This document shows positions 29,401 through 61,419 of a DNA stretch of 64,000 bases, piece after piece. Position numbers and translations under genes: made by a program. The DNA lies in the NCBI RefSeq assembly GCF_900142465.1, contig NZ_FRAX01000002.1:186001-250000 (forward strand), written 5' to 3'. Within the stretch, counting starts at the first letter, position 1. Every line of letters starts with the position of its first letter. The DNA comes from Fibrobacter sp. UWH6 (GTDB taxonomy: Bacteria > Fibrobacterota > Fibrobacteria > Fibrobacterales > Fibrobacteraceae). The notes beneath the pieces were generated by a model. That model saw only the letters and a list, made by a program, of their open reading frames with translations. It had not been told where the DNA came from and made no database searches.

Positions 29401-30822
29401 TTATTCTTCCGTAGAAGCGGCATCACCGCCGGCAACAGGATTCATGACGCAACGGACAGACATGGAGAAAGCCTTGTCCACTGGCATAGAGGAAACTTCC
29501 TTATCGGTGCTGAACATAGATCGAGCCACACCGCGGCCATCACCAACGTCAGCATCAGTCCAGAAGTATGCGCCCTCACCCTGAATGACAGAGATGTTAT
29601 TCTTGTTGACATAACCGCCAAAGAGAACGGTAAAGGCGTAATCGTCAGAGCCATTGCTACGAAGTTTTTCGGCAGCTACATTGGCACCGCCGGCATAAAC
29701 TTCCAGCATTTTCCATTCGTCATCAGTAGAAAGGTGAGAACCTTCGGGGCAAGCCGCCTGAGCTCCATCATAGGAATAGAGACGTCCGAAGACCTTGCAG
29801 TTCTCTTCTTCTCCGTCATAACATTTAGACTTGTCTTCCATGACGTAAGCCAAGTTCTGTACAAACCACTTGGTACCATTAATGTCCTTCACCTTGTAGC
29901 TCTGGTTATCACGCGGATCCACAAATGTTTCAAAAACAGGGCAACGGGCTTCAAGTTCCTTGGAAGCTAGGATGGAATCCACCTGAGGTTGCCACATATA
30001 GCAGAAGCGGAAAAGCTCGCCACCGGGAAGAGCGGAACTGTCGGCCTTGTGCCTGTCAGCCCACTGGTTCACGTAGGAAACGCTGATTACAGAAGAATCG
30101 GGAATCGAAAGACCCTTGGCATTAGCCTGCATCAATTTTGCAAAAGGTTCCGCAGCGGACATGGGGACTTTCCAGAAGCCATCCACGATTCCATTACGGA
30201 GAGCCTCGTAAAGGGGAGACGGTTTAGAAATGGTGATCACCGTATCCACATAATGTTCGGGAACAGCATCGCAAACCGGTTTATGCTCCACGCCACGCAG
30301 GGTATCTGCCTGAGCCCAGCATTCCTCGATGCAAGCCTCGCGAGCCTTACCTTTCTTCGCGCAAGGAACCCAGAGGGTCGTGTCCACCTGTTCCTTCACA
30401 GGCTTCGCGTAAGCCTTAGTTTTCAAGGCGGACTTTGCCACGGAACCAAGAGTTTCAATGGCATTTGCATTTCCTGCCGTAGCATCGGCAATCAATTTGT
30501 TGGTCACCTTGAGACATGTTTCCATGTCCTTGCCATTGGAGCAGGCCTTGACACCATAGCCATACACAAACTGGTTGGGGCAACTTTCAAAAGATTCACC
30601 AGGCATGGCCTTAAAAATCTTTTCATAAACTTTTACGGCATCGTTGGGGGAAAGTTCACCGCAGTAAATTTCCTCAACTTGACCTTTTTTCACCATCTTC
30701 TGCACAGTAGCCACATCGCCTGCATCCACAGCGTCACGAAGTTCCTGTTGGGCAAAAGCAGTCGCTGCAAAAGACAATGCAAGCCCGGTCATAACAAAAA
30801 TGTTTTTACGTCTATAAACCAT
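29401..30822 (-). CDS. Exported protein with N-terminal helical region and C-terminal FISUMP domain
   Basis: 473 residues with a signal peptide (about 1-24, cut near TAFA-QQ). Residues 25-290 are mostly helical with several Cys; the opening LRDAVDAGDVATVQKMVKKG resembles one ankyrin-type repeat. The C-terminal part (about 300-460) is a FISUMP domain: YKVKDINGTKWFVQNLAY, FGRLYSYDGAQAACPEGSHL, DDYAFTVLFGGYVN, FSMSVRCVM. Function unknown; probably periplasmic or surface-exposed. It sits one base upstream of epmA, a link with translation that may be only transcriptional. Confidence 0.85.
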   Translation of the reverse strand: MVYRRKNIFVMTGLALSFAATAFAQQELRDAVDAGDVATVQKMVKKGQVEEIYCGELSPNDAVKVYEKIFKAMPGESFESCPNQFVYGYGVKACSNGKDMETCLKVTNKLIADATAGNANAIETLGSVAKSALKTKAYAKPVKEQVDTTLWVPCAKKGKAREACIEECWAQADTLRGVEHKPVCDAVPEHYVDTVITISKPSPLYEALRNGIVDGFWKVPMSAAEPFAKLMQANAKGLSIPDSSVISVSYVNQWADRHKADSSALPGGELFRFCYMWQPQVDSILASKELEARCPVFETFVDPRDNQSYKVKDINGTKWFVQNLAYVMEDKSKCYDGEEENCKVFGRLYSYDGAQAACPEGSHLSTDDEWKMLEVYAGGANVAAEKLRSNGSDDYAFTVLFGGYVNKNNISVIQGEGAYFWTDADVGDGRGVARSMFSTDKEVSSMPVDKAFSMSVRCVMNPVAGGDAASTEE

Positions 30823-30924: not shown

Positions 30925-32163
30925 ATGATTGATGTAAAGTTTGATGCAGAAAAAATCCGTAGCGAATTTCCCATGCTCGTGGCAGGTGACAAGGAAGCTA
31001 AACCCCTGGCATTCCTGGATAGCACCGCCACCACCCAGAAGCCCGCATGCGTTATCGATGTCATGAACGACTTCTACCGAGAACACTACAGCTCCGTAAA
31101 GCGCGGCGTCTACCGTTTGAGCGCACGCACTACCGAGGCCTACGAAGCCACCCGCAAGAACATCGCCAAGTTTATAAACGCCAAGAGCGAAAACGAAATC
31201 GTCTTTACCCGCGGCACCACCGAAAGCATCAATCTGGTGGCCTGGAGTTACGGACGCAAGTTCTTTAACGAAAGCGATGAAGTTCTCATTAGCGGATTGG
31301 AACATCACGCAAACATCGTCAGCTGGCAAATCGTTGCCGAAATGAAGGGTGCAAAAATCAAGGTCATCCCGGTAAAGGACGATGGAGATTTGGATTTGGG
31401 TAAGCTACCGGAACTGCTAACCGAAAAAGTAAAGATGGTGGCCGTAACCCATGTAAGCAATGCCGTGGGCACGGTAAATCCCATCAAGGAAATTATTAAG
31501 ACCGTCCGCAGCAACGCTCCCCAGGCAAAGATTTTGATTGACTGTGCACAGAGTTCTTCCCACCTAAAGATTGACGTGCAGGAATTGGACTGCGACTTCA
31601 TCGCTTTTAGCGGACACAAGATGTACGGACCCACAGGAATCGGCGTTCTTTACGGTAAGTACGACGTGTTAGATTCTATGCCACCTTGGCACGGCGGTGG
31701 AGAAATGATCAAGAACGTCACCTTCGAAAAGACCACTTACGCAGATGTCCCTGAACGTTTTGAAGCAGGCACTCCCGCCATCGCCGAAGTCCTTGGTTTG
31801 GGCAAGGCTGTAGAATGGATTCAGGAAATTGGGCTGGACAATATCCGCGAACATGAAGAAAAGATTGTTGCATACGCTCTTGAGCAATTGGCAACCATCC
31901 CGCAGATCAAGGTGCTCGGCAACCCCAAGAATCGCGGAGCTTTAATCAGCGTAACTCTAGACGGAATCGCCGTCAGCGACGCCGCCATGATTCTCGATGA
32001 AGAGAACGTCGCTGTGCGCAGCGGCCACCACTGCGCTCAACCGGTCATGGACCGGTTCGGCGTGGATGCCACCCTCCGACTTTCCTTTGGCGTTTACACT
32101 CTAGAACGAGACGTAGACAGGTTCATCGCAGGAATTAAACGAGTCATTAGACTGTTCGCTTAA
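30925..32163 (+). CDS. sufS: Cysteine desulfurase, SufS type
   Basis: 412 residues, PLP-dependent. PLP Lys232 lies in FSGHKMYGPTGIG, catalytic Cys370 in RSGHHCAQP, both characteristic of group II (SufS) enzymes. It removes sulfur from cysteine for Fe-S cluster assembly. The open frame extends far upstream through the opposite gene, but homology begins at ATG 30925 (MIDVKFDAEKIRSEFP). No sufBCD or sufU is adjacent. It converges with a nucleotidase gene now 6.8 kb away; a bidirectional terminator follows immediately. Confidence 0.95.
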   Translation: MIDVKFDAEKIRSEFPMLVAGDKEAKPLAFLDSTATTQKPACVIDVMNDFYREHYSSVKRGVYRLSARTTEAYEATRKNIAKFINAKSENEIVFTRGTTESINLVAWSYGRKFFNESDEVLISGLEHHANIVSWQIVAEMKGAKIKVIPVKDDGDLDLGKLPELLTEKVKMVAVTHVSNAVGTVNPIKEIIKTVRSNAPQAKILIDCAQSSSHLKIDVQELDCDFIAFSGHKMYGPTGIGVLYGKYDVLDSMPPWHGGGEMIKNVTFEKTTYADVPERFEAGTPAIAEVLGLGKAVEWIQEIGLDNIREHEEKIVAYALEQLATIPQIKVLGNPKNRGALISVTLDGIAVSDAAMILDEENVAVRSGHHCAQPVMDRFGVDATLRLSFGVYTLERDVDRFIAGIKRVIRLFA

Positions 32164-32175
32164 TTAAAAAAGATT

Positions 32176-32198
32176 CCCCGACACCATAGGTGTCGGGG
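32176..32198. terminator. Bidirectional terminator after sufS
   Basis: CCCCGACACC-ATA-GGTGTCGGGG, a 10-bp perfect stem, followed by TTTATTTTC on plus and by AATCTTTTTT on minus. On the minus strand no gene now reads into it directly, consistent with a former partner having been displaced. Confidence 0.88.
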
Positions 32199-32213
32199 TT
32201 TATTTTCACTTCT

Positions 32214-32239
32214 AGATTATCTAATTCTGTTTTTTCCCT
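32214..32239. repeat. Left copy of direct repeat bounding the 32.2-39.0 kb island
   Basis: Matches 38973-38998 at 24 of 26 bases, including the perfect core AGATTATCTAATTCTG. The right copy is the 3' end of the nucleotidase gene (last codons and stop). See findings. Confidence 0.7.
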
Positions 32240-32276
32240 ACGCCCGCGGAAGGTCATCTCGGCGCTACAACCCTGT

Positions 32277-32305
32277 TTGTAAAAAAAAAATACACAAATT
32301 ATTTT
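32277..32305 (+). promoter_or_regulatory. Candidate promoter of the island operon
   Basis: TTGTAA (32277-32282), 17-bp A-rich spacer, TATTTT (32300-32305), 60 bp before the start codon. Moderate match. Confidence 0.4.
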
Positions 32306-32365
32306 TTTGCAGACGAATCATTTCTTGTTTCTTAAATTCATCCTCAATTTTTTAAGGACAAAGGA

Positions 32366-35300
32366 ATGAGAATGAAGGCGCACTGTATACAGCTTGCATT
32401 TGTGGCCATAGTTTGTGCAAAAGCATTTGCAGTCAATTTCCCGTATTCAGAATGGAACTTGGCAAACTATGAAGGTGCGTATGCCACGTTTAGTGACGGA
32501 CTTGTGTCTGTTGCGGATGGAGGTTCTGACTATTGGAATGTTCAATTGACTCGCAGGAATGTTGAACTTCAGGCAGGAAAAACCTATGAGCTGAAGTTCT
32601 TCTTGCAGGGCGTGGGAGCTCGTCGTTATACGGAGATCCGCATTGGCCGAGACGGCTTCCCTTATGATGCATTTGCTGATTTCGGTGAAGTTGTCGCTAG
32701 CGTGAATGGTCGTGAAATCACCAAGACCTTCAAAATGAATTCCGGCAATGTCAGCAACGCTCGCCTAGAATTCAATTTTGGCAAGAGTTCCGGGCTGGTT
32801 TATTTCTCGAACGTCAGCCTGAATTGCCTTGATTGTGGCGCCGTCCCCGTAGTCTCTGTTGATCCCAGTGGTAAATTTTCCTCTGCGACCGCCTTGAATT
32901 ACGTTGTCGTTGCTGAAGAGGTTGATCTTCGAGACGCGTCCATGGCCTTGGGCAATATCTTTGGGACTAAACTTGAACTTGGCGTAGAATCGGTTGTTTA
33001 CGGCGATGTTGATGCATCAAGAGAATGTTTCTTGCGCGACCGTTCCCGGGTTGATGGAAATTTGCGCTATGTGGTTCCGTGTACAGAACAGAAGAATGTC
33101 GTTGCAAAGAGCATGAGCTTGGCAAGGGTAGAGAAGCCTATTGTTGGCCTGCCTGAAGTTGGCTATGGTGTGGCTCCGGTATCCGTTGGTCTGGACGAAA
33201 CAATATCACTCCCTCCAGGTAAATACGGGGTGTTTTACGCCAATGCCCGGGCAAAGGTGCGCCTTTCTTCAGGCGTTTATTCCTTCCAAAAGATTTTTAT
33301 CGAGCCGGATGTCGAAATGAATTTTGATCTGAGCTCTGGACCGATTTCCATCTCCGTTGCTACGGATGTTCGTTTTGGTGACCGAAACCATCTTGACGTT
33401 TCTGGTGGCAATCCGAGCGAAATTTCTTGGAATATTGCTGGATCTACCGTTGATTTTGGTACTGATGGCAAGTATTTCGGAAAATTTATTGCTCCTGCTG
33501 CTTATGTGCGTATTCCGTCCAGATCTCACCTTGTTGGCGGCGTTTATGCTGCAAAGTTCCTGATGGAGCCGCAGTCTACGGTTTCTCAGGAACCGCGTGC
33601 AAATGAAATTTCCCATAGTGAAGAACACTTTGGTCCTTTCTTCAATCCGGGAATCTTCCGTTACAAATCAGTATTGCCGGTAACAGCATCTTCTGTCGAA
33701 ATGTTTGTGTATGTTGAAAATGCTTCGTATAAGATTAATGGAGCAAAGAATACAATCGTAGCCCTTCCATCTTCAAACGGGACGGTGAAAATTTCTGTGG
33801 CAAGAGATTTGATTTCTGGATTCCCTGCGGAGGCTTTCAGAAGTAGTTACGTTTTTGACTTTTCGAAGAGTGCTAACTATAGGATTTTCTGGAATCCTCA
33901 AACTTCGTGTAAGCAAGGCTGCGATGGAGCAAGTCTTGCAACCGCAGTGGATGATTTTGAAAAAGCCGTGGCTATCGCTCAAGCTACCGGTCGAGAAATC
34001 AACTTGCCCAAGGGATTATGGGACGTATCCCAAAATTTCAGCGAAGGAGTTGTTCCCTGGAAGGTCGGATTTGAACTTGTAGGATACACCGAAAGTATCT
34101 GGAATCTTGGCTCAGCAAATAATTTGCCGATAATTTTCTTGGGAGAAAATACTCATATTCAGATTGAGGGTAAATCCCCGCGATCTTTCACCGGCTTTAT
34201 GATCGGGAATGGCTCCAACGAAGAAAACGGCGGTGCTATAGCGTCCAATGCTCAAAGTTTGAAACTGAAGAATATTTTGTTCTCGGGCAGCAAATCAAAT
34301 AAAAATGGAGGTGCAATTTACTCTTCCGGCGACGTCAATATTGAAAACATCCACATTAAGAATAATTATGCAAAGGAAAATGGTGGTGCGATTTATGTTG
34401 ATGGAACTCTGAATGCAAAAAACGTGGTCATGAATAATAACTTTGTTGGAGGGAATGGAGGTGCAATTTACTCTTCCGGCGAGGCTAAGGCACAGAACGT
34501 TATATTGTGCCAGAACTTATCCGATAAGGATGGTGGTGCATGGTACGCTGCCGGAGGCTCCGTAAAAATGAGCAATGGAACTGTATTTGGGAATACAGGA
34601 AAACAGGGCCATGCAGCAATAGGCGGCAACGCTACTGGTGAAGTGTACAATTCGATTTTCTGGAAAAATATCGATGCAACTTGTTCCGTCGAAAAGTGCA
34701 AGAAGGAACTAAGCTCTTCGATTTCCGTTCATCACTCCATTACGGAGACCGTTTATAACGGCACAGGCAATATTGTAAAGGATCCTCTGTTCTTTAACGA
34801 AAGCACCCCTGCAGGGGACAAGGACTTTATGGATATGACTGCAGGATTGACTCTACAGGACGCTTCTCCCGCAATAGGGGCTGGCATCAAGGATGACTTT
34901 GTTTTGGATGCGGACATTCTGAATTTTGAAAGAGTAGAAAAAATTGATGTTGGCGCGTATATGTGGTATGATTTGAATTCGGATTATGTTTCGGGGCAAT
35001 TCATAAGAGGCTATTTCAAACCAGCCTTTAAGCAATATCCGGTTTTTTCAAAATTAGGCGATAAGTACGATATTTTTGAAAAGGGTAACGGAAGATATGC
35101 AAGAGTTTTGAGAAAAAAAGTACCTGTTTCTCGAGTCAAGGACATTTCAAAATTGGTTATAGAATTTACGTTGATTGCTGCAGATGGTTCTCCATACAAA
35201 ATTAATCCAATACGAATCCCTTTTTTCAAAAGCGATGAAAAAGATGGCTTCGCATACTTCCAGACAATCGTAAAAGACCCTGCAAGTCTTGGTTATTCAC

Positions 35301-35428
35301 CAGAGAATCATGGAAGAATGTTGATTTATACGTCTGATTATGGTAAGGTGGGTGAATATGGGGACGTTCAGGTCGTTCCTCTGTTGAATCAAGGCGATAT
35401 ATTGAAAGGAAAGGTTGTAGAATGGTAG
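32366..35428 (+). CDS. Large secreted beta-helix protein with PMP-type GGAI repeats
   Basis: 1020 residues with a signal peptide (about 1-22). Residues 23-155 look like a CBM4/9-type jelly roll (NFPYSEWNLANYEGAY...YELKFFLQG). A beta-rich middle part (160-480) follows, and about 540-800 is a parallel beta-helix with repeated NGGAIYSSG units (four copies plus variants) as in chlamydial polymorphic membrane protein repeats and pectate-lyase-like folds. The C-terminal 170 residues form a separate domain. It is probably a surface adhesin or carbohydrate-binding protein; no catalytic residues are evident. Start may be 32366 or the second ATG at 32372, which has better spacing from AAGGA. Base composition becomes clearly more AT-rich toward its 3' end. 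It overlaps the next gene by 7 bp. Confidence 0.82.
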   Translation: MRMKAHCIQLAFVAIVCAKAFAVNFPYSEWNLANYEGAYATFSDGLVSVADGGSDYWNVQLTRRNVELQAGKTYELKFFLQGVGARRYTEIRIGRDGFPYDAFADFGEVVASVNGREITKTFKMNSGNVSNARLEFNFGKSSGLVYFSNVSLNCLDCGAVPVVSVDPSGKFSSATALNYVVVAEEVDLRDASMALGNIFGTKLELGVESVVYGDVDASRECFLRDRSRVDGNLRYVVPCTEQKNVVAKSMSLARVEKPIVGLPEVGYGVAPVSVGLDETISLPPGKYGVFYANARAKVRLSSGVYSFQKIFIEPDVEMNFDLSSGPISISVATDVRFGDRNHLDVSGGNPSEISWNIAGSTVDFGTDGKYFGKFIAPAAYVRIPSRSHLVGGVYAAKFLMEPQSTVSQEPRANEISHSEEHFGPFFNPGIFRYKSVLPVTASSVEMFVYVENASYKINGAKNTIVALPSSNGTVKISVARDLISGFPAEAFRSSYVFDFSKSANYRIFWNPQTSCKQGCDGASLATAVDDFEKAVAIAQATGREINLPKGLWDVSQNFSEGVVPWKVGFELVGYTESIWNLGSANNLPIIFLGENTHIQIEGKSPRSFTGFMIGNGSNEENGGAIASNAQSLKLKNILFSGSKSNKNGGAIYSSGDVNIENIHIKNNYAKENGGAIYVDGTLNAKNVVMNNNFVGGNGGAIYSSGEAKAQNVILCQNLSDKDGGAWYAAGGSVKMSNGTVFGNTGKQGHAAIGGNATGEVYNSIFWKNIDATCSVEKCKKELSSSISVHHSITETVYNGTGNIVKDPLFFNESTPAGDKDFMDMTAGLTLQDASPAIGAGIKDDFVLDADILNFERVEKIDVGAYMWYDLNSDYVSGQFIRGYFKPAFKQYPVFSKLGDKYDIFEKGNGRYARVLRKKVPVSRVKDISKLVIEFTLIAADGSPYKINPIRIPFFKSDEKDGFAYFQTIVKDPASLGYSPENHGRMLIYTSDYGKVGEYGDVQVVPLLNQGDILKGKVVEW

Positions 35429-36960
35429 GAAAACTATTATTTTATTTTATTTTTGTTATTTTAATTTCTTGTTCTACAGGAACGGATACAGATGCAGGTC
35501 ATGCTGATGTGGTTGTTCTTGAGATTGTATATGATGATTTGGACAATCCCTCATCATCGTCTGATAATGGCCCCAAAAGAAGACATTCTTATTCCGGATT
35601 CTACAAAACGAATAATTTTAAGTGGGGTGTTGAATTAGCGAGTCTGTCCGAAAAAAGAGTACTGACTCACGCGTCCTATACATCTAGTGAAGAAGCTTCA
35701 ATGGAATGGTATGTCAGATGGAGTGTTCCTAGTATTTTGGAAGAATCAGAAAATTACAATGTTGTTCAAACATCGAATGAATATGAATATTTTCTATGCG
35801 ATGCGTCTCAGGAAGATATTGATGCTTCAAATTCTAATTTAATTCCAATCACTGGTGATATTTGCCGTATTGAAGAAAATGAAATTGAGAATGGAGAGAA
35901 GACATGTGGTATAATTGATTTGCGTGATTTCAGCGCATACAAAAAAATAGGATTGTGCCAATCATATGAAGACGGCCCCACAGTTTTACTGGCTGCAATA
36001 GAACCGCACGTATACGAACAAAGAAATATTTCTGTTAAAAATATAAAATTTGGAAAAACATCTACAAGGCCGTCAGATTTTAATGAAAAAGCTGTTGACA
36101 CGTTTAGGAGTGCTGTCGTGAACATTGAATTTGAAGACGTAGACTACGACATTTCAAAATTGAAAGAAATTGGCTTAGACAACGAAACTTATAGAAACGT
36201 AACAAACAGTTCTGGTGGATTTATATTCATTGCAGCCGGCGCGGAGAATAGTAGGTGTTATAAAAACATAAAAGATGATATTGAATATTTGAAAGAGTAT
36301 ACAAATAGGTATTTATTTCGCGACAATTCAATGGGAAATATGGCATCTGCGCTCGTATGGTCTGGAGCCCATCCAGTTCAGTATTGGACTTTTGAAAAAG
36401 ATGGATCTATTTGTTATGAAGGTTTGTTAGATTATCCAAAAAGAACGGGACAAGAGTATTTCATAGGAACAATAAATTCAAGAAAAGGGCAAGAATGCGG
36501 TTTTTTACTAGGGGAAAATAGAAAGATTCGATTTAACACTTCTTCCGGCTCGTGGGAGATTTACGGAGCCTATGGTGAAGATAAATGGTCTGACGACTTT
36601 TCCGAGATAGACCACGAGTGTCACATTATGTATGATCCGACTTCTAAAGATTGCGTATTGGATAGACATATTCCTTCAACATCAGTAGCCCTTACAAGTA
36701 ATTTAGGTAGCGGCTTTATAGCTATTTCGAAAGAAATGAAAAATAGCGTCATGTTGCACGAATTAGGACATACCCTAAAGCTGAGTGATACCGACCAAGA
36801 CAATAATTTAATGTTCTATAAACAACAATCTACACTTACAGCCAATCTCAGATATACTAAGATTAATGTTCGTGAAAATGATGAATTCGATATTTTTAAC
36901 ATGGAAGAATCTCAATGGAATTGTTTACACAACGATGCCGACTGTGCAGCGCCGTATTAA
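35422..36960 (+). CDS. Lipoprotein with metzincin-like zinc protease motif
   Basis: 512 residues. A short signal with lipobox LISC (Cys17) implies a lipid anchor. Near the C-terminus, HELGHTLKLSD (446-456) fits HExxHxxxxxD, with Met463 in NNLMFY seven residues after the third ligand, as in the Met-turn of metzincins such as snapalysin; the usual Gly after the second His is Lys here. The long region before it (30-440) is not recognised and carries several Cys. I infer a surface or periplasmic zinc protease, perhaps processing the beta-helix protein encoded just upstream (7-bp overlap). Strongly AT-rich codon use compared with the flanking core genes. Confidence 0.78.
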   Translation: MVGKLLFYFIFVILISCSTGTDTDAGHADVVVLEIVYDDLDNPSSSSDNGPKRRHSYSGFYKTNNFKWGVELASLSEKRVLTHASYTSSEEASMEWYVRWSVPSILEESENYNVVQTSNEYEYFLCDASQEDIDASNSNLIPITGDICRIEENEIENGEKTCGIIDLRDFSAYKKIGLCQSYEDGPTVLLAAIEPHVYEQRNISVKNIKFGKTSTRPSDFNEKAVDTFRSAVVNIEFEDVDYDISKLKEIGLDNETYRNVTNSSGGFIFIAAGAENSRCYKNIKDDIEYLKEYTNRYLFRDNSMGNMASALVWSGAHPVQYWTFEKDGSICYEGLLDYPKRTGQEYFIGTINSRKGQECGFLLGENRKIRFNTSSGSWEIYGAYGEDKWSDDFSEIDHECHIMYDPTSKDCVLDRHIPSTSVALTSNLGSGFIAISKEMKNSVMLHELGHTLKLSDTDQDNNLMFYKQQSTLTANLRYTKINVRENDEFDIFNMEESQWNCLHNDADCAAPY

Positions 36961-36974
36961 GGAGCAGATAGAAT

Positions 36975-38255
36975 ATGAAATATGTTTTGATTATACTCTT
37001 GTCGTTAATTACGTCAAATTTATTTGCAGCCGAAAAATGCATTTTTGATGCATTGGGAAATTGTAAAAAAAATGAGCAACCCAACGAATCAGTAAAAAAA
37101 ATAGTTCGCGAAAATGGAACAAAGAAGTATTACGTTTCTCCCTATACATATGCAGAAACAAACCAAAAGAAAGAATATCAAAAAATAGCACCTCGTAAGT
37201 CTGTAGGAAAAAAAAACTGGTATGAGGTTGACTGGAATCAGGGGGTAAAACTTTGCCCACAGAAAGATCAAAGGGGGCGTGTGAAAGACGGAATATGGAA
37301 AGTACGAGGTTCGTTCCATGTAGATTCCATGAATTGCGCTTTCATTGAAGGATCTCCTTACACCCGCAGCATCCTCGCCTTGTTCGCCCAGGACACAAAT
37401 GACTTGGCCCAGGCTGATTCAAGTTGGATTTTGGTGAATCAAACTATAGTGGAATTGACAGGAAAAAATTACAAAGTTTGGAAAAGTGAAGTTTGGGATA
37501 GGCATCGCAGAAGTGCAAGTAAATTCATTGAGGTTTCGTTGAATCAAGATTTGATTGTCGATAAAACTGAACTTCGTGTAAAAGATGTCTTGTGGCTGAA
37601 GAATGGCCGATCCAGAATTCGGTTTAAAGCGACCAACATTTACTATCCTGATCAAGACCCACTTAACATACTGGATTATCCGGCTCCGTCTGATATGGAT
37701 ATGTTGGAATATTCCTATTGGCGGTCTCAGGAAGACGGACTGGTCGACGTTTATAATACGGTTCCTGTAGAATCCGTAGACACCTCGAAAATCCTTTACG
37801 CAAGGAGCCGTAGCGATTTCTTCGTTAAAGTTTTTGATTCTACTGCCAATGGATATAGACTTCCCTTTGAATACGAATGGAGTGTCTTGCAAAATGGCGG
37901 AAAATCTACTGTTTTCTTTTGGGGCGATGATGCTGACGAAAAAGAATTGTCAAAGTATATGGACATAAAGCGAGGCGTTGGTCAAGAATTATGGGGTGTT
38001 TATCCTGTAAAACAGTTTAAACCCAACCCCTTCGGCTTGTACGATGTCTACGGGAATGCTGAAGAAGTTTACATGTATGCTGGCTCTCATGGGATTGCGT
38101 GGGGATACACTTGCGAAGGCTACGATACCATGAACATGGATATCGGACCATCCTGTGATTTTATAAACAAGTACAGAAGTAGAGTTCGAGGAACCAAGGA
38201 CACATGGGTGCCTGTCGGTCAAAGCGGCTATCGTCTGGTCCGTAAGCTAGAATAA
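36975..38255 (+). CDS. Exported formylglycine-generating-enzyme (SUMF1)-like protein
   Basis: 426 residues with signal peptide MKYVLIILLSLITSNLFAAE. The C-terminal half fits the FGE-sulfatase/SUMF1 fold: NGYRLPFEYEWSVLQNGG, FFWGDDADEKEL, FKPNPFGLYDVYGNAEEV and the closing GQSGYRLVRKLE. The paired copper-binding cysteines of true FGE are not seen near the C-terminus, so sulfatase activation is doubtful; a ligand-binding role is possible. AAGGAG lies 12 bp upstream, 14 bp after the protease stop. Third gene of the island operon. Confidence 0.8.
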   Translation: MKYVLIILLSLITSNLFAAEKCIFDALGNCKKNEQPNESVKKIVRENGTKKYYVSPYTYAETNQKKEYQKIAPRKSVGKKNWYEVDWNQGVKLCPQKDQRGRVKDGIWKVRGSFHVDSMNCAFIEGSPYTRSILALFAQDTNDLAQADSSWILVNQTIVELTGKNYKVWKSEVWDRHRRSASKFIEVSLNQDLIVDKTELRVKDVLWLKNGRSRIRFKATNIYYPDQDPLNILDYPAPSDMDMLEYSYWRSQEDGLVDVYNTVPVESVDTSKILYARSRSDFFVKVFDSTANGYRLPFEYEWSVLQNGGKSTVFFWGDDADEKELSKYMDIKRGVGQELWGVYPVKQFKPNPFGLYDVYGNAEEVYMYAGSHGIAWGYTCEGYDTMNMDIGPSCDFINKYRSRVRGTKDTWVPVGQSGYRLVRKLE

Positions 38256-38260
38256 AGACC

Positions 38261-38983
38261 TTGTTAAAGAAAATACTTCTCGTAAGTCTATTTTTCCTTG
38301 TAACCTTTTCTCATTGTGACGAAAGGTATAAGGACAGGCTTTTTGAGGTAAGCGTAACCAGGGATATCTTTTTTCAAACGATATCCCGTTCCTATGCAAA
38401 AGCATATGGTGTCCGCCTTGGAGTCGGGATCAGGTTTGTCAACTAATGTTACTCCAGTCCTGCATTTTTATCAAAACGCCTCCGATCTAAAAAAGCAAAA
38501 CCTACATTTTTATTTATACAAACCTAAAACGACACGTCGTAGCAAACTGTTCGATATTGCGATTCATTAGCTGCACGAGGATTCTTGGTAGCCAGCATTG
38601 AATACCGGCAAGGTATCGTTCTTCAAACAAAAAAAATGTGTTACTTGTTGATAGTTCTAATTTTAAACGAGCTGTCTCATGGGGAGCCGTTCTTGATTTA
38701 AATATGGTCAATAGGAAAAAATTACCTATTTTGTTGGTTCATGGTTCAGACGACCCCGTGATTCCTTTTAAGCATGGCGCGACGATGAACATGGACTCGT
38801 TAAAAGAAGATGCCGTTTTCCCTGGTTACAGGAATATTCGGTCATTTTTTTCAGTTCGTTTGAAAGTCCTGTTTTTTATAGTGGCAGCAGCCTAGATTCC
38901 GTACTTGTGCAAAATAGTATTTCTCATAAAACATTGTTTCTTAAAGGGGGGGGCATGAATTGTATAACGAAAAGATTATCTAA
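38261..38983 (+). pseudogene. Decayed alpha/beta hydrolase (esterase-like) gene
   Basis: Pieces of one hydrolase appear in order but in different frames. A TTG-initiated signal-peptide segment (MLKKILLVSLFFLVTFSHC... then FEVSVTRDIFF); a piece ending LHFYLYKPK (about 38442-38540); GFLVASIEYRQG (about 38577-38615), the strand before the nucleophile elbow; then LPILLVHGSDDPVIPFKHG (about 38722-38780), the acid-residue loop; and GGGHELYN, the catalytic His region, near 38945-38968. The GxSxG elbow itself seems deleted. The last two breaks fall in homopolymers, a T7 (near 38847) and a G8 (38946-38953). If the last two runs were corrected the C-terminal part would read through to TAA at 38981. Confidence 0.72.
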
Positions 38984-38998
38984 TTCTGATTCTTCCCT
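38973..38998. repeat. Right copy of direct repeat bounding the island
   Basis: Same 26-bp sequence as 32214-32239 with two mismatches. Here it covers the last codons and stop of the nucleotidase gene on the minus strand. Confidence 0.7.
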
Positions 38999-40520
38999 GG
39001 GATTTACGATATAGGTCAGGGATGGAATCCCCAAATTTCTTGACATAATCCGCAAGAACATCTGTATCAGTCGCGACATTGCCTATGAGAATCTTACTGG
39101 TCTTGAAGGCAGTAATCTCAGTCCCCTTCTTGGCTACATAAGAAGATGTTCCTACCGTATAGAGGCGTTCTAATTCTATGGGCGCAAAGTTGCCGGATTC
39201 ATCTTCAATCTGAACATCCCCCACCTTCATTTTAGAAGAAGAATTTATTTCGTAACGAAGGCCTGACACCTGCAAAAATCCACCAAATTCTTCAGGATAA
39301 TTTTTTGACCCCTGCTCCAGGGCCTCCACAATCTGACGTCCTGTAGCTTCAATCTTACAAATATCATTGAAAAAAGGAGACGCATCAAGAATGCTGTGGT
39401 AAGTAACCGCCCCCTGCGCAATCCCCCGGCGGATACCGCCTCCATTAGCAAGGCCAATCTGCGCACCAGTTGCAGTTCGGTAAGCATCGGCAACTAAATC
39501 TCCCAAATTGGTTTCGCCTTTCCGAACAAAACGTTCCCCACCCTTGTTGATGGTCAATTCAAATGGAGCCAGAGACAATTTTCTTTCAAATAGGTTTGCT
39601 TTCAATTGACTCAAACTATCTACAACAGCCTTCACTTTGCGGTTTTCTAAAACGGAACTATCTACAGAAATCAAGGTTGAATGAAAGCGACCATTACGAC
39701 CTATGTCCAGTTTACCAATATGCGAAAATTGCGTTCCAGTCTGACTTAGCAATACGGAATCGCCCTTAGCGTTAACCACCCACATTTCTTCAACGACAGA
39801 ATGCATGTGGCCATCCAACACGGCATCGATTCCGTCCGTATTTTCAATGAGGGATATAGAAGTTACCTTAGAATTTAGAGGGGGCAGCTCTCCTAAGTGA
39901 GAAAGAACAACAACATAGTCAGCGCCTTCCTTTCGAGCCTCATTCACAGCATTTTGAACAAGATTGTAGATTTCATTTTCATGAAAATGATAAAGAAGTT
40001 TTCCGTCATCATCATAAAACGCGTATGATTCCGAGACCAATGTTTCAGGGGTAAGCACCCCCACGAAAGCTATTTTCCTGGAACCAGCGTTCCTTATTAC
40101 ATAAGGTTTAAAAACAGGCGTAGTGGAACCGACTTTTGAAAAATTCACATTGACAATGTCCGCCTTCACATCTCTACTCAATTTCATCAAACGATCAACA
40201 GAAAAATCAAATTCATGATTGCCAAGAGTCACCACATCATAACCCACAGCGTTCATTAAATCTACGGAAAAGGTTCCCTTAGATATGGAACAAAAGGCTC
40301 CGCCCTGCAAAAAATCACCCGACGAAACCGTAAACACATAAGCCGTATCAGCAACAGCATCACGAATGCCAGACAATTTCACATAGCCATCTACAGCGCA
40401 GTGGACATCGTTATCGTAAATAATGACAATGTTTTTTTCGGGGGGCTGTGAAGTACAACCGAACAGTGCAAAAGAAATCACCCAAACCAGCAGCAACGTC
40501 ATTTTTGAGATGGCTTTCAT
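38976..40520 (-). CDS. UshA/5'-nucleotidase family metallophosphatase lipoprotein
   Basis: 514 residues. The start at 40520 (MKAISKM) opens a signal peptide with lipobox FGC. An N-terminal calcineurin-like phosphoesterase domain carries the dimetal motifs YDNDVH, SGDFLQGG, GNHEFDF, LSHLGE and DGHMHS; the C-terminal 5'-nucleotidase domain has NGGGIRRG and the substrate-stacking region. Expected role is hydrolysis of extracytoplasmic nucleotides or UDP-sugars. No terminator follows on the minus strand; the nearest suitable one is at 32176, on the far side of the island. Divergent from the zinc-finger membrane protein gene. Confidence 0.92.
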   Translation of the reverse strand: MKAISKMTLLLVWVISFALFGCTSQPPEKNIVIIYDNDVHCAVDGYVKLSGIRDAVADTAYVFTVSSGDFLQGGAFCSISKGTFSVDLMNAVGYDVVTLGNHEFDFSVDRLMKLSRDVKADIVNVNFSKVGSTTPVFKPYVIRNAGSRKIAFVGVLTPETLVSESYAFYDDDGKLLYHFHENEIYNLVQNAVNEARKEGADYVVVLSHLGELPPLNSKVTSISLIENTDGIDAVLDGHMHSVVEEMWVVNAKGDSVLLSQTGTQFSHIGKLDIGRNGRFHSTLISVDSSVLENRKVKAVVDSLSQLKANLFERKLSLAPFELTINKGGERFVRKGETNLGDLVADAYRTATGAQIGLANGGGIRRGIAQGAVTYHSILDASPFFNDICKIEATGRQIVEALEQGSKNYPEEFGGFLQVSGLRYEINSSSKMKVGDVQIEDESGNFAPIELERLYTVGTSSYVAKKGTEITAFKTSKILIGNVATDTDVLADYVKKFGDSIPDLYRKSQGRIRIR

Positions 40521-40562
40521 TTGCAGAAATATAACTAGATTTCGGGCATACCAGGAGAGCAC

Positions 40563-41378
40563 ATGTCAGAACAACAAGAAACTGTTCATATTCACATTAA
40601 GTCATTAGGACGAGCCGTGGAATTTCCGGTAAGAAGTTCCGAGACCTGCATGAAATGCAAGGGTACAGGCAAGAAAGACAAAAGGCCCTGCCCCTATTGC
40701 TGCGGCTCGGGACAGATCAAGATGCTGGATTGCATTCACTGTAGCGGAACAAAGGTCGCCACCAACGGAACAACCTGCAAGGGCTGCAAGGGAGAAGGCA
40801 TTCTCTCCGAAGTCAATACTCGAGAATTTTTGGACGCCCGCCAGTTCTGTGAAAACTTCAAGAAAAATCCCGCACGCACCATTTTGATTTGTCTCGCCTG
40901 CCTGCTGGTCCTGGGCATCTGCGCGCACATCATTTCTGGCTACGCATTCGTTTACTTCATGTTCCTAAAAACCTGGCCCTGCTACATTTCTCTTTTGGTA
41001 GGCCTGGGCGCAGGTTTTTACGTTCTGGTTTGCCTCAATAAGATGAACAAGGGTTCCTATCTGACCGCAACAACAAAAGGCTTAATCAGCGCAGGTGTCA
41101 TCGCCGTTTGGATTGCCGCCATCGCCATTCCCGGCCCCGTTACAGGGCGCTACTGGTGGATCGAAAAGGAAACCAAGAATACCATGAGCAGGGCACTCGC
41201 AGAGCAAGGCCTCGCCTGCCAAAGCGTAAAAGTTGACCACGCCAACGGTGATGATTACCATGCAATAGCAACGCTCTCTAACGGAAACGATATTAAAGTG
41301 ATTACACATTTCAAGGAAGAACGCGGACACGGCAACAAAATTGCGTACTCAATTTACGTGGAACCTGTAAAGCAATAA
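40563..41378 (+). CDS. Membrane protein with DnaJ-type zinc-finger domain
   Basis: 271 residues. The N-terminal part has four CxxCxGxG-type motifs (Cys29/32, 43/46, 57/60, 72/75; the third reads CIHCSGTK), the pattern of the DnaJ cysteine-rich domain, which binds two zinc ions and unfolded protein. No J-domain is present. Three hydrophobic segments follow (about 107-128, 138-158, 173-190), then a soluble C-terminal domain of about 75 residues. No signal peptide, so the zinc fingers should face the cytoplasm. A membrane-bound chaperone or assembly factor is plausible. Strong terminator downstream. Confidence 0.82.
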   Translation: MSEQQETVHIHIKSLGRAVEFPVRSSETCMKCKGTGKKDKRPCPYCCGSGQIKMLDCIHCSGTKVATNGTTCKGCKGEGILSEVNTREFLDARQFCENFKKNPARTILICLACLLVLGICAHIISGYAFVYFMFLKTWPCYISLLVGLGAGFYVLVCLNKMNKGSYLTATTKGLISAGVIAVWIAAIAIPGPVTGRYWWIEKETKNTMSRALAEQGLACQSVKVDHANGDDYHAIATLSNGNDIKVITHFKEERGHGNKIAYSIYVEPVKQ

Positions 41379-53843: not shown

Positions 53844-54767
53844 CTACCTGTAATATTCTTCAGGTGTTTTTCCGTAGAATCGGTTAAAGTAATCGGAAAC
53901 GCCATTCCAATCAGGGTAAACAGTATCAACGGTCTTCCCAAGTAAATTAAGCTCTTCACGAATTCTTGTTTTTGCACTATACGGGATACGGATTTTGGCA
54001 AGGCGAATTTCAGTACCTTTGTTAGATTCTAGAGTGGCCAGATGAGTCTTGTCACCATCTATGCCAAAGAGAAGGAAGGCCCCCTGCTGCGACTTGATTC
54101 TTGGATTATCCAAAAGCGGATGAACGCAATAAATGGACTCCATATTATCCTTTTTTATCCATGGTCCAAAATAGGATTTTTCCGCCCTTATTTCATGCAA
54201 CAGATGTTTGATGCTGTCGTCCTCATTAAATGCGGTGCGAGCCGCTTCCTCTGTGGAACCAGACAAATGCCTTATATCAAGGTTATCATAATTGTAAAGC
54301 GCAATATTTGAAATCACGCTCACTACATCGGAATGCCAGTTGCGAACAGAATCCTTGTGAATTTCATAAACGAGTACGACAGAATCGCAATTATCACCCA
54401 CCTGAGACTTCGGATCATTATAAAGAGCGAAGAACAAGGATTGCAGAGAATCCAAAGAAACATCCAGCAAACGGGTGCGAATTCCATAATGCTGCATCAA
54501 GGAAAGCTTTTCAAAAGTCGTGGAGCAGCCTGCAAATTCATGAGCCAACCTGCGTTCGCATTCCCGGAATAGCGTAGATTCCCTATTGCCTTGTAGCCAG
54601 CCATCTCGCGCAATCCCCGGCGTTCCCGCTGACGTCCCATAATCCTGAGGCTCACCACGAAAATAGAGTTGAACATCTTCGCGATATCCCTCTACACCAT
54701 AGCGCGTAAAGGTTTTTAGCACTTCTAGGTAATCGGCTACAGAATAGATGTCGTAATAAGCAGACAT
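53844..54767 (-). CDS. FRG-domain protein
   Basis: 308 residues less one when started at ATG 54767. The FRG domain is clear: LYFRGE (34-39), ERRLAHEF and MQHYGIRTRLLDVS (91-104), then LFFALY. The domain's activity is not established; it is frequent in mobile and defence-associated genes. The C-terminal half is not recognised. Its ATG shares a base with the stop of the upstream small gene (TGATG), so the two form a coupled unit. Confidence 0.85.
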   Translation of the reverse strand: MSAYYDIYSVADYLEVLKTFTRYGVEGYREDVQLYFRGEPQDYGTSAGTPGIARDGWLQGNRESTLFRECERRLAHEFAGCSTTFEKLSLMQHYGIRTRLLDVSLDSLQSLFFALYNDPKSQVGDNCDSVVLVYEIHKDSVRNWHSDVVSVISNIALYNYDNLDIRHLSGSTEEAARTAFNEDDSIKHLLHEIRAEKSYFGPWIKKDNMESIYCVHPLLDNPRIKSQQGAFLLFGIDGDKTHLATLESNKGTEIRLAKIRIPYSAKTRIREELNLLGKTVDTVYPDWNGVSDYFNRFYGKTPEEYYR

Positions 54768-55117
54768 CAAGGAACCTCTACTTCCGTGATTGAATATTCA
54801 GATTCAGATTTTTCTGAGGCAAAGCGTCCTTCAATCGTCAGTTTTAACGGTTTCTTGTTGAGCATCGCCATGGCAAGGAGAATTCTTGCGATTTCACAAT
54901 CGGTTTTAATTGAATACGGTTTGCCAAGTTCCAACAGTTTGGAATTTTCGACATTTCCGTTATTTTCCAAAAGATTAAGAATTTCATCCTTTGACTTTTC
55001 GTAACGATGTTTGCCAACGCCGTTGAGAACGACCTTACCTTCGGAGATAATCTTAGTGACAATTGCGGTTATGGAGTATTTCACAAGATGTTTACTAGCG
55101 TTCGACTTTTTACTCAT
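54767..55117 (-). CDS. Small soluble partner of the FRG protein, unknown function
   Basis: 116 residues starting MSKKSNASKHLVKYSI. The start at 55117 has AAGGGTG upstream, whereas in-frame starts further up run into a GC-rich spacer. The product is mixed alpha/beta with no signal peptide: a Lys-rich beginning, a helical centre (DEILNLLENNGNVENSKLLELG) and a strand-rich end (KLTIEGRFASEKSESEYSITEVEV). I do not recognise it. Coupling to the FRG gene suggests the pair acts together. Confidence 0.65.
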   Translation of the reverse strand: MSKKSNASKHLVKYSITAIVTKIISEGKVVLNGVGKHRYEKSKDEILNLLENNGNVENSKLLELGKPYSIKTDCEIARILLAMAMLNKKPLKLTIEGRFASEKSESEYSITEVEVP

Positions 55118-60076: not shown

Positions 60077-60619
60077 ATGTTCTACAGTTACGAAGATTGC
60101 ATATCCAATTACGGTTCCAACCACTTTCTTGAGAAAGCGCTTCGTAACGGCAAGTTGTTTAAAGTAGAAAACGGGATTTATTCGGACTCTTCCACATGGC
60201 GGGAATTAGCCCTGGTAGCCTTCAAAAACAAAGACGCAGTCTTCACTATGGAGAGTGCATTTTATTATCACGGTTTAACCGACGTCGTTCCAGAACACTA
60301 CACTTTAGGAACCGATCGCGATTTCACAAAAATCCGAGACCAAAGAGTACACCAGTATTTTTTTCCAGACAATCTTCTAATGCTCGGCGTCGAAGAAAAA
60401 GAGGTTAACGGAGTTTCAATAAAAATCCACACAAAAGAGCGACTGCTAATCGAACTAATACGTCGTTCAAACAAGTTGCCTTTTGACTACTACAAAGAAA
60501 TCATGGGCAACTACAGGAATAAAATTTTTGAACTTGACGAGGAATGGTTCGAGGACAATGTTCCTAAATTTCCGGGATCAAAGAAAATTATGAATGCGAT
60601 TAGGTTGGAGGTTTTTTGA
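60077..60619 (+). CDS. abiEi: AbiEi-type antitoxin/transcriptional regulator
   Basis: 180 residues. An N-terminal winged-helix region (FYSYEDCISNYGSNHFLEKALRNGKLFKVENGIYS) and the core AVFTMESAFYYHGLTDVVPEHYTL are typical of type IV AbiEi antitoxins. It should repress the operon and counter the nucleotidyltransferase toxin. AAGG lies 5 bp before the ATG. Its stop overlaps the toxin start (TGATG). Confidence 0.88.
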   Translation: MFYSYEDCISNYGSNHFLEKALRNGKLFKVENGIYSDSSTWRELALVAFKNKDAVFTMESAFYYHGLTDVVPEHYTLGTDRDFTKIRDQRVHQYFFPDNLLMLGVEEKEVNGVSIKIHTKERLLIELIRRSNKLPFDYYKEIMGNYRNKIFELDEEWFEDNVPKFPGSKKIMNAIRLEVF

Positions 60620-61419
60620 TGATCAGTCTTGAGGAAGAAATTCAGAAGTGCGTAAGCCAAGGCTTTGCAGAAGAACAAGCCATTGCTAAAGTAGGGCAAG
60701 ATGTCATTCTGTACGCAATAAGCCGAAGCCACCTGAGTGAAAGTATAACCGTCAAAGGTGGCGTCGTAATGAGAGAATTGTCGCACAACAACCGCCGAGC
60801 CACGCAGGATATTGACATTGATTTCATTCGTTACTCCCTCGAGGAAGATTCCATAAGATCATTTATCAAGACATTGAACAATATTGATGGCGTATCTGTT
60901 TCTTTGGTAGGCCAGATGGAAGATTTGAAGCAACAGGATTACCACGGCAAACGGGTGTTCTTGAAATTATCCGATTCATTTGGCTTTGAAGTAACTAGTA
61001 AAGTCGACATTGGAGTTCATAAGCACATTGACATTTCGCAAGAAGAGTTCTGTTTCGACATTGCTTTGCAAAATGATTGCGTAAGCCTTTTAATAAATTC
61101 AAAGGAGCAGATGTTCTCCGAGAAATTACGTTCCTCGTTAAAGTTCGGCATTCATTCTACACGTTACAAGGATGTATTTGATTTGTTCTGGCTATCCAGA
61201 AACATCAACAAAGAAAAATTGCGAAGCTGCATGAATGAATTCATCTTTTCCGATGCGGGAATGAAAGAAAACTCAACGAGTGATGTCATCAAGAGAATCG
61301 AAAAGGTTTATGGAGACAAAAACTTTAGAAGACAAGTTGTCCGTTCAAAAAAGAATTGGCTCGACATTGATGACGACATGGCTTGTGACGGTCTAATTGA
61401 ATTTTTGCGTACGCTGTAA
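60619..61419 (+). CDS. abiEii: AbiEii-type nucleotidyltransferase toxin
   Basis: 266 residues. Nucleotidyltransferase signature: KGG (46-48) and TQDIDIDF with Asp64, Asp66 and Asp68, then KVDIG and the C-terminal helical part. AbiEii/MenT-like toxins transfer nucleotides to tRNA or other targets and cause growth arrest, giving phage resistance. ATG at 60619 is used (GGAGG 7 bp upstream); the TTG before it is ignored. Active-site residues are intact. Confidence 0.9.
   Translation: MISLEEEIQKCVSQGFAEEQAIAKVGQDVILYAISRSHLSESITVKGGVVMRELSHNNRRATQDIDIDFIRYSLEEDSIRSFIKTLNNIDGVSVSLVGQMEDLKQQDYHGKRVFLKLSDSFGFEVTSKVDIGVHKHIDISQEEFCFDIALQNDCVSLLINSKEQMFSEKLRSSLKFGIHSTRYKDVFDLFWLSRNINKEKLRSCMNEFIFSDAGMKENSTSDVIKRIEKVYGDKNFRRQVVRSKKNWLDIDDDMACDGLIEFLRTL

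Follow-up and report, generated by a model that had tools for sequence, protein, structure and literature searches.

In Fibrobacter sp. UWH6, which belongs to a genus of plant-fibre degraders of the gut, an operon for exported proteins lies between the core gene sufS and a UshA-type 5'-nucleotidase gene, bordered by a 26-bp direct repeat whose right copy forms the 3' end of the nucleotidase gene. Our best reading of this locus, held at a probability of about one half, is that it arose by two nested insertions, in which the operon would have entered the end of an accessory nucleotidase gene by illegitimate insertion with a 26-bp target duplication. The window analyzed comprises 64,000 nucleotides of contig NZ_FRAX01000002.1 (positions 186,001 to 250,000), and all coordinates given without a genome or locus number refer to it (Table 1). 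All genome comparisons were made between species representatives, which carry G numbers below, with their loci given as L numbers.

Table 1. Features of the sufS locus and its insert
Feature	Position	Strand	Basis or remark
sufS, cysteine desulfurase, core gene, left anchor	30925..32163	+	TIGR01979, 560 bits
Bidirectional intrinsic terminator 3' of sufS	32176..32198	both	terminator scan; minus-strand tail AATCTTTTTT
CTAGATT, left border of whole sufS-to-DnaJ insert	32212..32218	+	in G036 sister empty site
Left copy of 26-bp direct repeat	32214..32239	+	repeat comparison, genome search
34-bp G+C-rich stretch between left repeat and operon	32240..32273		operon homology starts after it
Operon leader and promoter region	32274..32365	+	homology to G024 and G025 operon loci starts at GTTTGTAAAA
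I1, secreted protein with CBM_4_9 and polymorphic-outer-membrane-protein repeats	32366..35428	+	PF02018, PF02415, TIGR01376
I2, lipoprotein with HExxHxxxxxD, metzincin-like protease candidate	35422..36960	+	sub-threshold PF00413 and fragilysin matches
I3, secreted FGE-sulfatase-domain protein	36975..38255	+	PF03781, 42.6 bits
I4 pseudogene, relic of a BD-FAE (feruloyl esterase type) alpha/beta hydrolase	38256..38974	+	intact homologues match PF20434
Right copy of 26-bp direct repeat, overlapping nucleotidase gene 3' end	38973..38998	+	repeat comparison, genome search
UshA-type 5'-nucleotidase lipoprotein	38976..40520	-	PF02872, PF00149; accessory in genus
CTAGATT, right border, promoter region of DnaJ-like gene	40535..40541	+	in G036 sister empty site
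DnaJ-zinc-finger-like gene	40563..41378	+	weak PF00684, below cut-off

A direct repeat private to the locus

Comparison of the two repeat copies (AGATTATCTAATTCTGTTTTTTCCCT on the left and AGATTATCTAATTCTGATTCTTCCCT on the right) confirmed the 24 of 26 matches of the original prediction, with the first 16 bases identical and two differing positions, and the best ungapped 26-base match in shuffled 200-bp flanks was 17/26 and never higher; the direct repeat is real and far above chance. No third copy was found in the 3.92-Mb, 50-contig genome at up to three mismatches with two positions left free, and the 16-mer core, searched at up to one mismatch, was absent from 78 of 79 other genus genomes, the last giving a single chance-like match; the repeat is therefore private to this locus. 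As had been predicted, the right copy contains the last codons and stop of the UshA-type gene (TTA at 38976-38978, minus strand), the left copy sits directly past the bidirectional terminator of sufS, the terminator scan found no terminator-like site downstream of the nucleotidase gene, and the sufS terminator has the T6 on its minus strand. No known RNA families or tRNA genes were found at the insertion site. Two other identities for the repeat were tried and rejected: read as the C-terminus that the esterase gene once had (K-I-I-stop-F-stop-F, compared with KIIEFLF in G022), its score was matched by 30-39% of controls and its DNA similarity had a p of 0.07 or worse, leaving that origin unsupported; and a genome-wide search for an attachment family, made with the full repeat and with its 16-bp core, gave nothing beyond chance matches.

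An operon that recurs across the genus

The inserted genes I1, I2 and I3 form a co-directional operon for exported proteins, whose functions are assigned from domain matches, some of them below cut-off; the HExxH motif of I2 is conserved in six homologues. The esterase relic that follows carries several frameshifts, has lost internal stretches and is missing its last ~20 codons, and its homologues are intact (342-346 codons) in G018, G022, G024 and G008. A search for phage and defence genes gave no defence match, and PHROG matched only two families, one of FGE-domain type and one of nucleotidases with unknown function.

The same order, I1-I2-I3-esterase, was found in G024, G018 and G022, and I1 followed by a partner and then an FGE-type gene in six genomes (G025, G036, G069, G010, G026 and G027). 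Homologous operons occupy other chromosomal positions in G024, G036, G025, G069, G018, G022, G010 and G026, and their distribution marks the operon as accessory and recurrent in Fibrobacter. The I1 and UshA proteins share 50-59% identity with their nearest genus homologues, against more than 92% for SufS and GlnN in sister species, which argues that I1 and UshA were not inherited in place. In two sister species, G024 (L098) and G036 (L102, 3070-10959), the operon lies between aroD and clpP, an interval that is a second variable site. Separately, this interval was seen to hold a different gene in G082 and G025, and neither the operon nor that gene in UWH6, G064, G009 and G078. In G024 a 3' fragment of pgi (97 codons, PF00342; L098 10475-10768) borders the operon directly on its left, and on the operon's other side there seems to be an IS3-like transposase pair. 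Flanking repeats beyond chance were absent at seven other operon loci. A 64-bp direct repeat brackets the G010 operon (G010:C24:23847-23910 and 30713-30776); it was rejected as an operon-specific flank, being dispersed with several copies in the UWH6 genome, G026 and G025.

These relatives also delimit the insert. Upstream of I1, similarity to the operon leaders of G024 and G025 begins at 32274, and similarity of the esterase relic to G018 stops at 38974, where the right repeat starts; from these homology limits the inserted fragment is estimated to span about 32240-38972. The 34-bp stretch between the left repeat and the operon leader had no other match in the UWH6 genome or the compared loci.

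The nucleotidase gene as a possible earlier arrival

The original prediction described convergent core genes on either side of the island, which holds for sufS and fails for the UshA-type gene. A sufS gene was present in 61 of 61 genus genomes searched (G015 and G063, of low completeness, had only a paralogue or fragment), and SufS is 92-98% identical within the sister-species group. The UshA-type gene was present in 6 of 37 genus genomes in a first survey, with several more recovered by a wider DNA search, and no sister examined had it at the sufS site. Being rare in the genus and missing at this site in the sisters, it is accessory and itself an insertion. Its genus homologues are always only 53-59% identical to the UWH6 protein, and its closest relatives among the named genomes searched, mainly Bacteroidales and Clostridia, reach 45% or less. 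The likely start is the ATG at 40520, the longest open frame reaching 40562. The gene has a G+C content of 0.428 and a GC3 of 0.39, compared with a GC3 of 0.57-0.66 for sufS, the DnaJ-like gene, glnN and ntrC. The AT-rich character ascribed to the island stands, with a G+C content of 0.36-0.44 in the island region against 0.477 for the window, but it extends over the nucleotidase gene as well.

The sufS site is operon-less in six sister species. The DnaJ-like gene follows sufS at ~100 bp or less in G036, G024 and G078, and glnN follows directly in G064, G080 and G025, in all cases with neither UshA nor operon; the DnaJ-like gene is the right-hand neighbour that sufS originally had in several of the sister species. 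Neither copy of the 26-mer was found in the sisters examined at this site. Together with the homologous operons elsewhere in relatives, these empty sites uphold the prediction that the island is an insertion, and make it most likely that the repeat is a duplicated nucleotidase 3' end. Since the UshA-type gene is also accessory, the insert relative to the sisters extends further, from the sufS terminator at 32212 to the promoter of the DnaJ-like gene at 40541, with CTAGATT at both ends. This heptamer occurs once in the G036 empty site and may be part of a promoter.

Proposed nested insertions and competing explanations

We infer the order of the two events from CTAGATT, which is contiguous with the left repeat copy and not with the right; the left copy would then be the original nucleotidase end and the operon the second arrival. 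The heptamer thereby suggests that UshA came first and the operon later, though the signature is only 7 bp long and, on the left, depends on a gapped alignment with a single sister. In the proposed sequence of events, an accessory UshA-type gene would have entered the intergenic region between sufS and the DnaJ-like gene, leaving CTAGATT on both sides and its own 3' end against the sufS terminator. A 6.7-kb fragment with I1-I2-I3 and the truncated esterase gene would later have entered the 3' end of the nucleotidase gene, whereby 26 bp of target would have been copied to flank the fragment, the left copy representing the original gene end and the right copy now serving the nucleotidase. As to joining, we infer that a linear fragment was captured, either at a staggered break or through template switching, and that no element-borne recombinase took part; linear-fragment joining with 26 bp copied most likely explains this anatomy in the fewest steps, and ragged joins such as the pgi fragment at the G024 operon are expected of illegitimate recombination. 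Counting against the target-duplication reading are the length of 26 bp, which is long for simple end filling, and the two mismatches between the copies; nor is the duplication directly seen, as no compared genome carries the nucleotidase without the operon at the sufS site.

Site-specific integration, which the original prediction had likened the locus to, would cast the operon as a non-autonomous element that attached at the nucleotidase 3' end and was served by a recombinase in trans. The flanking 26-bp repeat, taken from a gene 3' end that leaves the gene intact, is what such an event would give, and 11 tyrosine-recombinase genes exist elsewhere in the genome, in a search that covered tyrosine recombinases (PF00589). 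However, profile searches found no recombinase among the island proteins, in agreement with the earlier remark that no integrase was visible, and the 372-kb contig carries no tyrosine recombinase, the nearest PF00589 genes lying on other contigs. Moreover, the presumed attachment sequence has no second site (save for the one-mismatch single match, its 16-mer occurs only at this locus), operons elsewhere have different flanks with no common repeat, and the esterase gene is cut off at the right border. From this mechanism one would expect a recombinase, a site used repeatedly or an element that ends cleanly; their absence leaves it unsupported, and we consider it quite improbable. Very improbable is the idea that a chromosomal recombinase targeting gene 3' ends moves the operon in trans as a non-autonomous mobile unit, one of several such integrase-free units in Fibrobacter.

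Homologous recombination would produce an identical topology, with an operon circle or transferred fragment recombining with a short pre-existing homology, so that the repeat would be crossover homology and not a target duplication. The 64-bp repeat at the G010 operon would fit such a process, but as a sequence dispersed through several genomes it need not be related; 26 bp is also short for RecA-dependent exchange, and with seven other operon loci devoid of flanking repeats beyond chance this route seems improbable. Also unlikely is a joint arrival, in which a single 8.3-kb segment, bounded by the two CTAGATT copies, brought operon, esterase relic and nucleotidase, and the left 26-mer was left over from a local rearrangement, e.g., a nucleotidase end duplicated and then deleted. 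Operon and nucleotidase are both missing at the site in all sisters examined, both parts have low GC3, and CTAGATT brackets the whole segment; yet the left 26-mer calls for an extra duplication and deletion, and no operon genes were found in the ~1.5-kb flanks of ten other UshA-type loci of the genus.

Relation to known systems and other variable sites

The proposed nested insertion with illegitimate joining has partial likenesses among described systems. Integrase-free genomic islets with flanking direct repeats likewise consist of accessory genes of lower G+C content between older neighbours, with a short repeat and no mobility genes; unlike in such islets, the UWH6 repeat is unique to its locus, the neighbour that supplies it is itself accessory, and the cargo is a recurrent operon seen elsewhere in the genus. 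As in integrative elements at gene 3' ends (tRNA genes, guaA), a copied 3' end of ~26 bp flanks the insert and leaves the gene intact, whereas the UWH6 insert has no recombinase, no recurring attachment site and a truncated border gene. Homology-facilitated illegitimate recombination, described in natural transformation and conjugation, needs a homologous anchor at one end (PMC3240628). It resembles the proposed event in involving a linear fragment, at least one non-homologous end joined illegitimately and odd junctions, and differs in that no anchor longer than 26 bp is seen in the UWH6 locus. Among the first matches listed for literature on Fibrobacter islands, none was directly relevant.

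On present evidence the locus reveals no new mechanism. It shows accessory surface-protein operons moving among Fibrobacter genomes without visible mobility genes, and with its clean breakpoints it can serve as a case of operon relocation without an integrase. When Fibrobacter genomes are compared, the intervals sufS-glnN and aroD-clpP deserve attention as variable sites. Between sufS and glnN, G082 and G009 carry other cargo; in the same interval of these two genomes, a 152-bp non-coding element (98.7% identical; L056 3518-3669 and L058 8726-8877) lies upstream of a HigA-like HTH gene, with no Rfam match and a folding no better than that of shuffles. Elsewhere in the window, an FRG-domain gene was observed at 53844-54770, and a low-G+C stretch at the right end holds, at 60077-61419, an AbiEii-type toxin gene (PF08843) with an upstream partner of 180 codons.
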